From the NCBI RefSeq assembly GCF_014193585.1, contig NZ_BLXY01000003.1, positions 124,001 through 188,000 of the forward strand: a stretch of 64,000 nt of DNA, given 5' to 3'. The notes beneath the pieces are model-generated. The model did no database searches and had not been told where the DNA came from. It was given only the letters and a program-made list of their open reading frames with translations. Source of the DNA: Geomonas paludis (lineage in GTDB: Bacteria; Desulfobacterota; Desulfuromonadia; Geobacterales; Geobacteraceae). Made by a program: the position numbers and the translations under genes. Each line of letters starts with the position of its first letter. Within the stretch, counting starts at the first letter, position 1. This document shows positions 60,665-63,786 of this stretch, piece after piece.

Positions 60665-61468
60665 TTAGAGACCGGAGGATTCGTAAGATTCTGCCACTTC
60701 TTTCACGCGCAGCAAGCGCCGGAGATCGGAACCGGCCAGGAGCCTGCGGTCCTCGATGCTGTCGATGAAGCCGCGCAGGATCCCCTTGGGAGATGCGGGT
60801 GCAAACGGGGAGACCAGGAAAATGAGCGGCAGCAGCGGCTTGATGAGCGCCCTCTTCTGCTGCCAGCCCCGCTGCAGGTGGTTGAAAACCTTGGTGAGCT
60901 GCTCCGGCGGGAGAGCGGCGGCTTGCGCTGTCAGTTGCACCAGCGGCACGATGTCGCGCTCCAGCAGCGCGTCGATACCGGCCACGGTGGCGCCGGCCGG
61001 CTCGCAGCCGGCATCGAGCGAGGAGACCACGGACCAGCGCGGGAAGACGGCCCGGGCGCTATCGAGCGAGCGCAGGCGCGCCTCGAGATGCCAGCCGCAC
61101 TCCCTGGAACGGGCATGGTCATAGGCATGCAGCGGGATGTCGAGGATGTCCACCCCGGCGGCGTAGGCGCGCTCCACCAACTTTTGCGAAGGACAGAAGT
61201 CGACCCTCCCCACCAGGTAGGCGTTGAAGTTTTTCTTGATCAGCCGGGCGAGGTTTTCGGCCCGGGCAAAGCGCTCCTCGTCGCCAAAGGTGAGGTGAAA
61301 GAGCGCCGCGTTGCTCTGGAAATGGCTGTCGTACAGCGTCTCTATGGTCTGACGCTCCGGGAGATCCCCCCCCACGTAGAAGACGTTGGCTTCCCGCCGC
61401 AGTTCGTCGGGGGAATACGGGGAGGTCCGGCCGACGAGCTCCCGCATTTTCTTCTGGTCAATCCTCAT
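60665..61468 (-). CDS. Unknown protein resembling a radical SAM-type barrel without cluster cysteines
   Basis: A 267-residue protein. The stretch LVGRVDFCPSQKLVERAYAAGVDILDIPLHAYDHARSREC (shown in part: VDFCPSQKLVERAYAAGVD) resembles the barrel strands of radical SAM enzymes, but no CxxxCxxC motif exists anywhere in it. The carboxy part is helical with ALIKPLLPLIFLVSPF. I do not know a function. ATG 61468 has GGGGAG upstream. First gene of the unit with DASS and Rrf2, so a role with the transported anion or in its sensing is possible. Confidence 0.7.
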   Translation of the reverse strand: MRIDQKKMRELVGRTSPYSPDELRREANVFYVGGDLPERQTIETLYDSHFQSNAALFHLTFGDEERFARAENLARLIKKNFNAYLVGRVDFCPSQKLVERAYAAGVDILDIPLHAYDHARSRECGWHLEARLRSLDSARAVFPRWSVVSSLDAGCEPAGATVAGIDALLERDIVPLVQLTAQAAALPPEQLTKVFNHLQRGWQQKRALIKPLLPLIFLVSPFAPASPKGILRGFIDSIEDRRLLAGSDLRRLLRVKEVAESYESSGL

Positions 61469-61706
61469 GGGTGCTGCTCCCCCTGGCAATCCAAGATACA
61501 TCACGACGCTGTGCGATTTTAGCAACCTTACGTAAATTAACCAAAACAGTCAACAAAAAATACTGCATTACCCACCATTATACTAGAGTAATCTGAAAGG
61601 CATATCTTTCCGTGCACTTGCCCCATCAGGGAAAGTATGAGACCACCCTATTGACACTCCCGTTCGGCGCCTTTTTGCACCGACTGAAGAGCTGAATCCA
61701 TTCTCA

Positions 61707-61869: not shown

Positions 61870-62307
61870 ATGATATCTCGCATCGATCATCTCAACATCG
61901 TGGTACGCGACCTGGAAGCGGCCACCGCCTTTTTCGCGCTGCTCGGCTTTACCCCCGGCATCAGTTCCGCCCTCGACACCGGGTTCCTCGAGAAGCTGAC
62001 CGGCGTGCGCTGCGCGGGAGGCAGGTTCACCGCCCTGCACCACCCCGGTTCCGACCTTTCCATCGAACTGTTGCAGTTCGACGCCGGCGGTGACCCCGAC
62101 GCCGGCGTCGGCATCGCCAACCGCATCGGCATGCGCCACCTGGCCTTCGCGGTCACCGACATTGACGCCGAGGTGGCGCGGCTGCGCGGCCACGGCGTGC
62201 AGTTCATCGGCGAGGTGCAGGTCTGGCAGAAGACCGGGAAAAAGCTGATTTATTTCCACGGGCCGGAAGGGATCCTGTTGGAACTCGCCCAGTACCCGAA
62301 CCAGTAA
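61870..62307 (+). CDS. VOC family protein
   Basis: A 145-residue glyoxalase-fold protein: ISRIDHLNIVVRDLEAATAFF at the start, IELLQF in the first unit, then RHLAFAVTDIDAEVARL and IYFHGPEGILLELAQ. The His-Glu pattern (H-x..E..H..E) matches a metal site, close to methylmalonyl-CoA epimerase or glyoxalase-type members. The substrate is not known. The ATG at 61870 has AAGG six bases before. It lies 29 bases before the DAC gene in the same direction. Confidence 0.88.
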   Translation: MISRIDHLNIVVRDLEAATAFFALLGFTPGISSALDTGFLEKLTGVRCAGGRFTALHHPGSDLSIELLQFDAGGDPDAGVGIANRIGMRHLAFAVTDIDAEVARLRGHGVQFIGEVQVWQKTGKKLIYFHGPEGILLELAQYPNQ

Positions 62308-62336: not shown

Positions 62337-63656
62337 ATGCCGATCAAGAACAAGACCCCGCGCCACCTGGCCGAATTCGTCTGCACCGAACTGCGCAAGC
62401 GCAAGGCGGTTGTGCCTGACGACCAGGTCATCATCGAGCTCATGGAGACCATGTACTACTCCAGCCTCCGCACCGAGGAGTCGGAGCCGGTACTGTTCCA
62501 CATGGTCTTTCTCGACCCGAGCCAGCCCGACCCGAAGCCGCCGCGCAACCCGGCGCGGGACCGCTGGAGCTACATCCCCTTCGCCGACCCCATCCCCTTC
62601 ACCGTCTCCAACGTGGTGAAGATTGCCAAATCCACCGACCTGCGCACCTCTTCCTTCGTGATCTGGCCGGACCAGCTGGACCAGCTCTACATCTGGGGAC
62701 TGGTCGACCAGCAGAACCGTTTCCACAAGTTCCTGAACCGCTCGGCAGAGGTCGAGGTGGAGCGCCCGGGCGTGTTCCAGGCCAGCGTCGAGGGGATCGG
62801 CATCATCGCCGTCTACATGCGCTACGAGAAGGTGGCGGAACTGAGGGTCAACGAGGTGATCCGCCACTCGCTGGACCTGTTTCGCGAAGGGCCGGTGCGC
62901 GAACTGTTGGCGCCGGGGATGGACCGGTTCCTCCAGGGGGTGCGCAGCCACATCCCCGACGACATCTACCAGGCCCAGGGGGCCGGGGACGAACTGCACG
63001 CCCAGCAGTGGATCTCCGTGCTGTGCCGGATCCTGCTCAGGATCCAGAAGATCAAGAACGGCGGGGCCATCCTTATTACGCCGCAGATCACCCCGGACGA
63101 CCTCAACGTGAAGTACGGCATCAACTACGACCGGCTGCCGACCTCGCTGCAGTCCAACGCCGTCAGCAAGATCAAGTCCGACTACCTGGAACGGCACCTG
63201 CTCGGGCACGGCGACGCCCGGCCGAAGGAACTTTCCGCGGACCAGTTCCAGCAGTTGCGGCGCCTGGAGAAGGAACTGCGGGCCAACAAGAACGAGATCG
63301 ACGGGGTGATCTGGTTCATCGCCCTGTTGACGCGGGTGGACGGGCTGGTGGTGATGGACCCGAACCTGGTGGTGCGTGGTTACGGCGTGGAGATCAAGAA
63401 CTGGCAGGAGCCGGACCAGGTCTTCATCGCCACCGACCGCCTGGGGAGCGAGGCCAAGCTGCGCCCGGTCAGTTACAACCACTTCGGGACCCGGCACAGG
63501 TCGATGATGCGCTATTGCTGCCAGAACCCCGGCAGTCTCGGTTTCGTGATCTCACAGGACGGCGAGGTGCGGGTCATGACCATGCTGGGCGAGCGCCTGG
63601 TGATGTGGGAAAACATCAAGCTGAAGTACTACAGTTACGCCTCCAAGAAAAAATGA
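62337..63656 (+). CDS. Probable DACNV-DAC nucleotide cyclase (diadenylate-cyclase-like)
   Basis: A 439-residue soluble protein. The first 280 residues resemble the DACNV-type sensor region (FVIWPDQLDQLYIWGL, then helices with RVNEVIRHSLDLFREG). The last 130 look like a DisA-N/DAC catalytic domain: VDGLVVMDPNL with DGL at 335-337 where active enzymes have DGA, and GTRHR at 384-388, the phosphate-binding motif. FVISQDGEVRVM follows as in DAC proteins. It could make cyclic di-AMP or a related nucleotide; the DGL change leaves the key aspartate in place. No membrane helix, unlike CdaA. Context: after a VOC gene and before a MuiA-like gene. Confidence 0.8.
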   Translation: MPIKNKTPRHLAEFVCTELRKRKAVVPDDQVIIELMETMYYSSLRTEESEPVLFHMVFLDPSQPDPKPPRNPARDRWSYIPFADPIPFTVSNVVKIAKSTDLRTSSFVIWPDQLDQLYIWGLVDQQNRFHKFLNRSAEVEVERPGVFQASVEGIGIIAVYMRYEKVAELRVNEVIRHSLDLFREGPVRELLAPGMDRFLQGVRSHIPDDIYQAQGAGDELHAQQWISVLCRILLRIQKIKNGGAILITPQITPDDLNVKYGINYDRLPTSLQSNAVSKIKSDYLERHLLGHGDARPKELSADQFQQLRRLEKELRANKNEIDGVIWFIALLTRVDGLVVMDPNLVVRGYGVEIKNWQEPDQVFIATDRLGSEAKLRPVSYNHFGTRHRSMMRYCCQNPGSLGFVISQDGEVRVMTMLGERLVMWENIKLKYYSYASKKK

Positions 63657-63674: not shown

Positions 63675-63768
63675 GTCCCCACCTTTGCGAAGGGGGGACA
63701 GGGGGGATTTTGCTGCTGCGCAACCAAAAGCAAATCCCCCTAAATCCCCCTTCGCAAAGGGGGACTTT
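63675..63768. repeat. Inverted pair of CCCCCTTT palindromic repeats
   Basis: Left arm 63675-63711 and right arm 63732-63768 are near-perfect inverted copies around about 20 unrelated bases. Each arm holds the TTTGCGAAGGGGG core followed by GGGGGATTT. Confidence 0.85.
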
Positions 63769-63786
63769 AACTACCCGAGGTTCACT

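Follow-up and report, generated by a model that had tools for sequence, protein, structure and literature searches.

The closest described relatives of the gene analysed here are the cyclic di-AMP (c-di-AMP) synthases CdaA/DacA and DisA (diadenylate cyclases, DACs; PF02457) and the DACNV-DAC family (PF21751), which joins a DAC domain to a domain labelled 'Probable sensor domain DACNV' in Pfam, and which is reportedly described by Galperin in the 2023 J Bacteriol article 'All DACs in a row'. The gene lies near the end of a 64,000 nucleotide stretch of Geomonas paludis (RefSeq assembly GCF_014193585.1, contig NZ_BLXY01000003.1, positions 124,001 to 188,000, forward strand; referred to as the window) and encodes a DACNV-DAC protein, termed type B, in which the DGA and GxRHRxA motifs are changed. 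We estimate a probability of about 0.5 that type B is a working, soluble, signal-regulated DACNV-DAC cyclase, most likely making c-di-AMP in a reshaped pocket. A second kind of cyclic dinucleotide signalling exists in the same bacterial group, namely the Hypr GGDEF cyclic GMP-AMP (cGAMP) synthases of Geobacter, which carry a GGDEF motif. Unlike type B, these enzymes have an unrelated fold and motif, and there is no evidence tying type B to cGAMP. PMC8835794 deals with cGAMP in Geobacter.

The nucleotide contacts of canonical DACs provide the basis for comparison. In Listeria CdaA, as given in section 2.3 of PMC7288161, adenine is contacted by the L31 side chain (GALI motif) and the L88 main chain, ribose by D71 (DGA motif), the metal by E124, and phosphate by the side chains of T102, R103, H104 and S122 and the main chain of G101 and E123. 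Passages of PMC6368335 on S. aureus DacA describe ribose contacts by D176 and G177 and a phosphate contact by T207, and in Mycoplasma bovis CdaM synthesis is abolished by changing the Asp and Gly together, or the Arg, His and Arg together (passages of PMC13022847).

Fifty-five DACNV-DAC proteins were aligned, comprising 18 type B, 18 type A (the group of a second DACNV-DAC gene of this genome, which bears DGA) and 19 outgroup rows, where 'type A' and 'outgroup' are search-based labels and not clades (A_L069 sits among the outgroup rows on the tree). Of 20 type B places, two were excluded, one in G180 that is cut by a contig end (L018/L062) and one in G217 that is divided between two frames (L066), and L011, L051, L052, L053, L056, L057, L059 and L061 were taken as repeats of assemblies already counted. 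Type A was found at 33 places (L037 is split over two frames); 18 were used, four of them in the window's genus, for which 19 genomes were available. The outgroup excludes L101 (below cut-off, without a profile match), L102 (below cut-off, 10 bits to the profile) and the split Hymenobacter gene L104. The features of the type B gene, in window coordinates, are as follows.

62337-63656, + strand: type B DACNV-DAC protein, 439 amino acids (aa), ATG start, stop codon within the span.
62403-62705, + strand: DACNV sensor domain, residues 23-123 (Pfam PF21751, 67.5 bits against a cut-off of 27, E 1.2e-18).
62484-62486, + strand: Glu50, Glu in 18/18 type B rows and Arg in 35/37 other DACNV-DAC rows.
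62706-62948, + strand: middle region, residues 124-204, the stretch linking sensor and catalytic parts, without a Pfam match at E<=1.
62949-63617, + strand: diverged DAC domain, residues 205-427, approximate borders (fold matches of a low-confidence model, and homology to type A).
63060-63074, + strand: GGAIL, residues 242-246, predicted counterpart of GALI (by alignment, placed by motif order; role from passages of PMC7288161).
63339-63347, + strand: DGL, residues 335-337, counterpart of DGA by alignment.
63387-63389, + strand: Val351, Val in 18/18 type B rows and Ala or Gly in 35/37 others.
63486-63509, + strand: GTRHRSMM, residues 384-391, counterpart of GxRHRxA by alignment, with Met390 replacing the last Ala.
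63552-63560, + strand: SQD, residues 406-408, counterpart of SEE by alignment, with Asp408 at the metal-binding Glu position (role from passages of PMC7288161).

The type B rows formed one clade with support of 100/100 and a stem length of 2.56 changes per alignment column, on a midpoint-rooted tree that has several other long branches and weak support at its deepest forks (85/14). The combination of DGL and RHRSM in place of DGA and RHRxA was present in 18/18 type B proteins, 0/37 other DACNV-DAC proteins and 0/30 canonical DACs, the last being a biased sample (the best-scoring among the class genomes sampled) in which every sequence read DGA, GTRHRAA, and SEE or SEQ. At residue 337, Leu in all type B rows stands against Ala (35) or Cys (2) in the 37 others; at residue 390, Met in all type B rows stands against Ala (27), Val (6), Gly (3) or Ser (1); and at residue 351 the other rows have Ala (18), Gly (17), Val (1) or Ser (1). 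Together with position 234, these three positions are the small-to-large changes of type B. At only two of the 439 positions, L337 and E50, is type B invariant while 75% or more of the other rows share a different residue; this pair suggests a putative switch in each part of the protein, at E50 for the sensor and at L337 for the catalytic motif.

The counterparts of the catalytic residues have been kept alongside these changes. D335, G336, G384, T385, R386, H387, R388, S406 and D408 are invariant in 18/18 type B rows, and all 18 read (V/I)SQD, retaining the metal-site acid as Asp408, which stands for CdaA E124 (Asp for Glu, pairing by motif). The gene is also under purifying selection, with a median ratio of nonsynonymous to synonymous substitution rates (dN/dS) of 0.178 (91 pairs, 14 rows, L016 excluded) that was lowest in the DAC part (0.157), followed by the DACNV part (0.184) and the middle region (0.209); the value for type A was 0.154 (10 pairs, 5 rows). 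Because the catalytic-residue counterparts are invariant and selection is purifying, it is concluded that the predicted active site of type B is in use. A pseudogene or sequencing error was ruled out by the 18 intact rows sharing the same substitutions together with the purifying selection, and type B is a real, conserved gene.

By sequence comparison, type B belongs to the named DACNV-DAC family, and what is unusual is its DGL/RHRSM subclade. It has the two-part build of the family over its full length and an above-cut-off DACNV domain, which was matched in 13/13 type B members scanned (E<=1), and it shares the Asp at the SQD/SEE acid site with 35/37 other rows. It differs from the family in carrying DGL rather than DG[AC], RHRSM rather than RHRx[AVGS], V351 where Ala or Gly is usual, and E50 where the sensor mostly has Arg. 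NCBIfam and PADLOC-DB 2.0.0 (anti-phage defence) scans of the type B protein returned 0 families at E<=1.

Relatives in named genomes were found at nine loci, with 93-97% identity in Geomonas propionica, azotofigens, diazotrophica and anaerohicana; the remaining loci, four at 67-81% identity and one ending at a contig edge (71% over 168 residues), belong to Citrifermentans bremense, Geomonas silvestris, Geomonas limicola and two 'Geobacter sp.' metagenome-assembled genomes. A preliminary description of the locus, made from the sequence alone, had placed a probable DACNV-DAC protein in the genome of a metal-reducer-like bacterium, and the closest relatives, in Geomonas, bear out that kind of genome. 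It had placed DGL at 335-337 and GTRHR at 384-388, exactly where both are found, and the alanine-to-leucine change that it pointed out in DGA proved to be clade-wide and fixed. Its soluble protein with a sensor-like amino part agrees with the DACNV match and with a top 19-residue Kyte-Doolittle mean of 1.71, compared with 2.33 in the CdaA-type protein of the same genome, and type B is accordingly predicted to be soluble. The label 'uncharted second-messenger enzyme' does not hold, as DACNV is already a Pfam domain and RefSeq names relatives by it (two Hymenobacter plasmid relatives are called 'putative sensor domain DACNV-containing protein'). Nor is the family out of place in the group, as that description had implied: Pfam DAC was found in 146/146 genomes sampled from the class, because of which c-di-AMP synthesis is to be expected here, and Deltaproteobacteria often carry DAC genes according to passages of PMC7288161.

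The C-terminal part of type B is considered DAC-like because of its DGA-bearing paralogue, the wider family and the fold comparison. Over 405 columns, the profiles of type B and of the DGA-bearing type A aligned with a probability of 99.9 (E 1.2e-32). Type A in turn was matched by Pfam DAC in 17/17 members scanned (E<=1, best 8.5e-8) and, as a profile, gave weak CdaA matches among PDB sequences (best E 0.017). Against a canonical DAC profile, for which loci L110-L139 were combined with the two canonical DACs of the genome, type A with outgroup rows scored a probability of 93.7 (E 3.2e-8), and all DACNV-DAC rows together 91.5 (E 1.1e-7). The type A/outgroup-to-canonical alignment placed GTRHR on GTRHR and SQD on SEE, but DGA on GALI; the pairing of DGx with DGA used here is based on motif order, on equal spacing from DGA to the next Gly, and on the Pfam alignment, in which residues 344-423 of type A fall on profile positions 52-112.

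For fold comparison only, a structure of residues 205-439 was predicted (mean pLDDT 47.7, poor). In Foldseek against PDB, the 50 matches listed of 281 (E<=10) were all DACs, with a best E of 8.6e-5 and TM scores among those 50 of 0.47-0.60 by target and 0.31-0.42 by query. VIA-align placed DACs as its 40 top entries (Z 10.8-12.3; the first covering 129 residues at 2.6 A) ahead of an unrelated row with Z 3.8; one of the 40, 2fb5, is titled a hypothetical protein and is counted as a DAC in passages of PMC7288161. The low pLDDT makes the fold match support rather than proof, and the predicted DAC fold of the C-terminal part is well supported but not proven. A full-length AlphaFold2 model from eight closely related rows (mean pLDDT 45.5) was set aside.

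Type B thus shares with CdaA/DacA and DisA the motif order, a DAC-like fold match, the DGA Asp, GTRHR and the Ser of SEE, and is unlike them in being a soluble protein with a DACNV sensor, in DGL, in the Met ending GxRHRxA, in SQD, in a below-cut-off Pfam DAC score, and in a DGx-to-GTRHR spacing of 49 residues compared with 30 in the CdaA of the same genome. The DisA-N-like end of the preliminary description is therefore upheld by the paralogue, the wider family and the fold comparison, and is qualified by how far it has diverged. Of the checks proposed with it, the profile search returned DACNV above and DAC below the cut-off, and the structure overlay, in which a fold other than DAC was to count as refutation, returned only DACs among the listed matches, from the low-confidence model.

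Activity, product, dimer mechanism, sensing role and the effect of the two motif changes are what we infer from here on. The DACNV domain would sense a cytoplasmic cue and control the diverged DAC domain, and two DAC domains placed face to face would couple a pair of nucleotides to give a cyclic dinucleotide, with c-di-AMP as the likeliest product. The L337 and M390 changes would probably affect the rate, the metal used or the shape of the pocket, while the base would still be adenine.

Several results weigh against such an enzyme. Pfam DAC matched the type B protein at 11.5 bits (E 0.24), below its cut-off of 27, and at E<=1 it matched only 10/13 type B members (best E 0.014). When the DAC part of type B alone was compared with the canonical DAC profile using hhalign, the probability was 0.1 (0.05 for a sensor-part control), and the type B profile had no match among PDB sequences. 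The poor confidence of the predicted model belongs on the same side, as do the bulky residues at two catalytic-motif positions that are small elsewhere, which may block substrate. The literature searched, with little searching by DACNV name, reported no activity for any DACNV protein. In further searches, the type B profile did not match the same genome's CdaA alone, and a PDB sequence search with the single type B protein gave one unrelated row only (E 0.99).

These points bear first on whether type B is active at all. A catalytically dead DAC that keeps nucleotide binding, and acts as a receptor or a regulator of the remaining DACs of the genome (for instance through pairing with type A, or through sensing of ATP or c-di-AMP levels), would explain why the DGA and RHRxA alanines have given way to the bulky L337 and M390, and it would suit the long stem branch of type B and its coexistence with above-cut-off DACs in all type B genomes sampled for DAC (15 of 20). 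We regard this as somewhat unlikely. Dead enzymes usually lose catalytic residues first, whereas every type B row retains the DGx Asp, all of RHR and the acid at the metal site. The Arg in third place of RHR, which 11/37 other DACNV-DAC rows have lost, is present throughout type B. A partnership with type A, moreover, cannot hold in general, because four genomes carry type B as their sole DACNV gene. The 11 losses of the third Arg were distributed over 10/19 outgroup rows (N, Q, C or H) and 1/18 type A rows (L, in L069), and loci that keep DGA with this Arg lost include L091-L095, L096-L099 and L083.

A cyclase with a changed product, using another nucleotide or a mixed pair (e.g. cyclic AMP-GMP) and with the sensor ligand also changed, is improbable in our view. 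The four small-to-large positions, the purifying selection after the change, and the pair of positions that alone are invariant in type B against a different shared residue elsewhere (L337 and E50, one in each part of the protein) could all be read in this way, but the GALI-like strand is still hydrophobic in type B, and passages of the literature on DACs contain no DAC with another product. The fuller version, in which a lineage-specific DACNV-DAC carrying R50E, A337L, A390M and A/G351V makes a cyclic dinucleotide other than c-di-AMP as a separate Geomonas-type signal, is quite improbable. It is highly improbable that the C-terminal DAC-fold domain has been turned to an unrelated, non-cyclase task, as the missing direct profile match to canonical DACs and the below-cut-off Pfam DAC score might suggest, since the order and identity of GG-hydrophobic, DGx, GTRHR and SQD are common to type B and type A, and type A does match canonical DACs (by profile with outgroup rows, and by Pfam). 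A working cyclase with a reshaped pocket, most likely making c-di-AMP, remains the preferred reading.

DACNV was found in 36/277 genomes of the class and in 22/395 sampled from the phylum (20 above cut-off). All 19 genomes of the window's genus have type A (in G178 as a gene broken across two frames), and type B is present in 16 of them. In a genus of another family (g23) four genomes have a type B-like gene, one copy split, as their only DACNV gene; type B can therefore do without type A. The split copy (L066:385-1231, genome G217) lies over two frames, from a frameshift or an assembly error. Neither the type A nor the type B profile had confirmed relatives on viral contigs, and on plasmids DACNV relatives occurred in the two Hymenobacter records only (L103:7986-9194 and L104:7908-9150, the latter annotated as two pieces).

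Three places in the genome exceed the Pfam DAC cut-off, namely a CdaA-type and a DAC-YbbR-type gene (named by sequence reading) and type A; type B is not among them. The type A paralogue (L007:8228-9562, minus strand) carries DGA and GTRHRAA and has a DAC score of 25.8 bits, or 30.4 in all with a neighbouring stretch, and of 26.5 as a protein, just below 27. Type A lies near dinB (DNA polymerase IV) in 5/18 loci and near lexA in 4/18 (some of them short), in opposite orientation, in loci that include L007 (dinB 1276 nt away), L074, L077, L081 and L034, which hints that type A may be connected with DNA damage. The genome also encodes a PgpH-kind 7TM-HD protein (176.5 bits) and has five DHHA1 places, read from their sequences as one alanyl-tRNA synthetase, one RecJ and, among the others, two small DHH-DHHA1 proteins (326 and 352 aa) of the NrnA phosphodiesterase type. 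With the CdaA-type and DAC-YbbR-type genes, the PgpH-kind protein and these two small proteins, the genome is equipped for c-di-AMP metabolism, which speaks for a working type B. No c-di-AMP (ydaO) riboswitch was found in the genome at E 0.001.

One neighbouring gene of type B lies close upstream.

61870-62307, + strand: glyoxalase-family protein (Pfam Glyoxalase, 45.5 bits), ending 29 nt upstream of type B.

The two genes are possibly co-transcribed. Neighbourhoods were counted at the four g23 loci and, within the window's genus, at the 15 loci that gave usable type B rows. A glyoxalase gene is upstream on the same strand in 11/15 genus loci, no more than 67 nt away in 10 (with a partial match in L014) and at 510 nt in L055, and is not found upstream in L013, L015, L017 and L058. 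A DUF4139 gene is downstream in 12/15; L014 ends at type B, and L015 and L017 have none. Both neighbours are thus absent at two genus loci, and they are also both absent at all four g23 loci, where sequence reading instead gave Pst and PhoR/PhoB-type (L065), PhoR/PhoB-type (L066), molybdate-type transport (L063) and riboflavin-type (L064) genes. A conserved operon partner was rejected on the basis of these six loci. A partnerless gene would fit a producer of a diffusible signal.

Two further observations concern the surroundings of the gene. A G- and C-rich inverted repeat, seen by eye at about 63680-63770 between type B and the next gene, is perhaps a dispersed intergenic repeat. A 286-aa protein (60665-61525, minus strand) has no Pfam match at E 0.01, and at 11 other loci a relative of it adjoins type B.

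Should type B prove active, defining DAC active sites by DGA and GxRHRxA is too narrow, and motif-based searches miss real cyclases. The presence of type A (DGA) and type B (DGL) in one genome offers a natural pair for probing the role of the DGA alanine. We know of no DAC-fold enzyme with a product other than c-di-AMP, and were the product of type B to differ, it would to our knowledge be the first.
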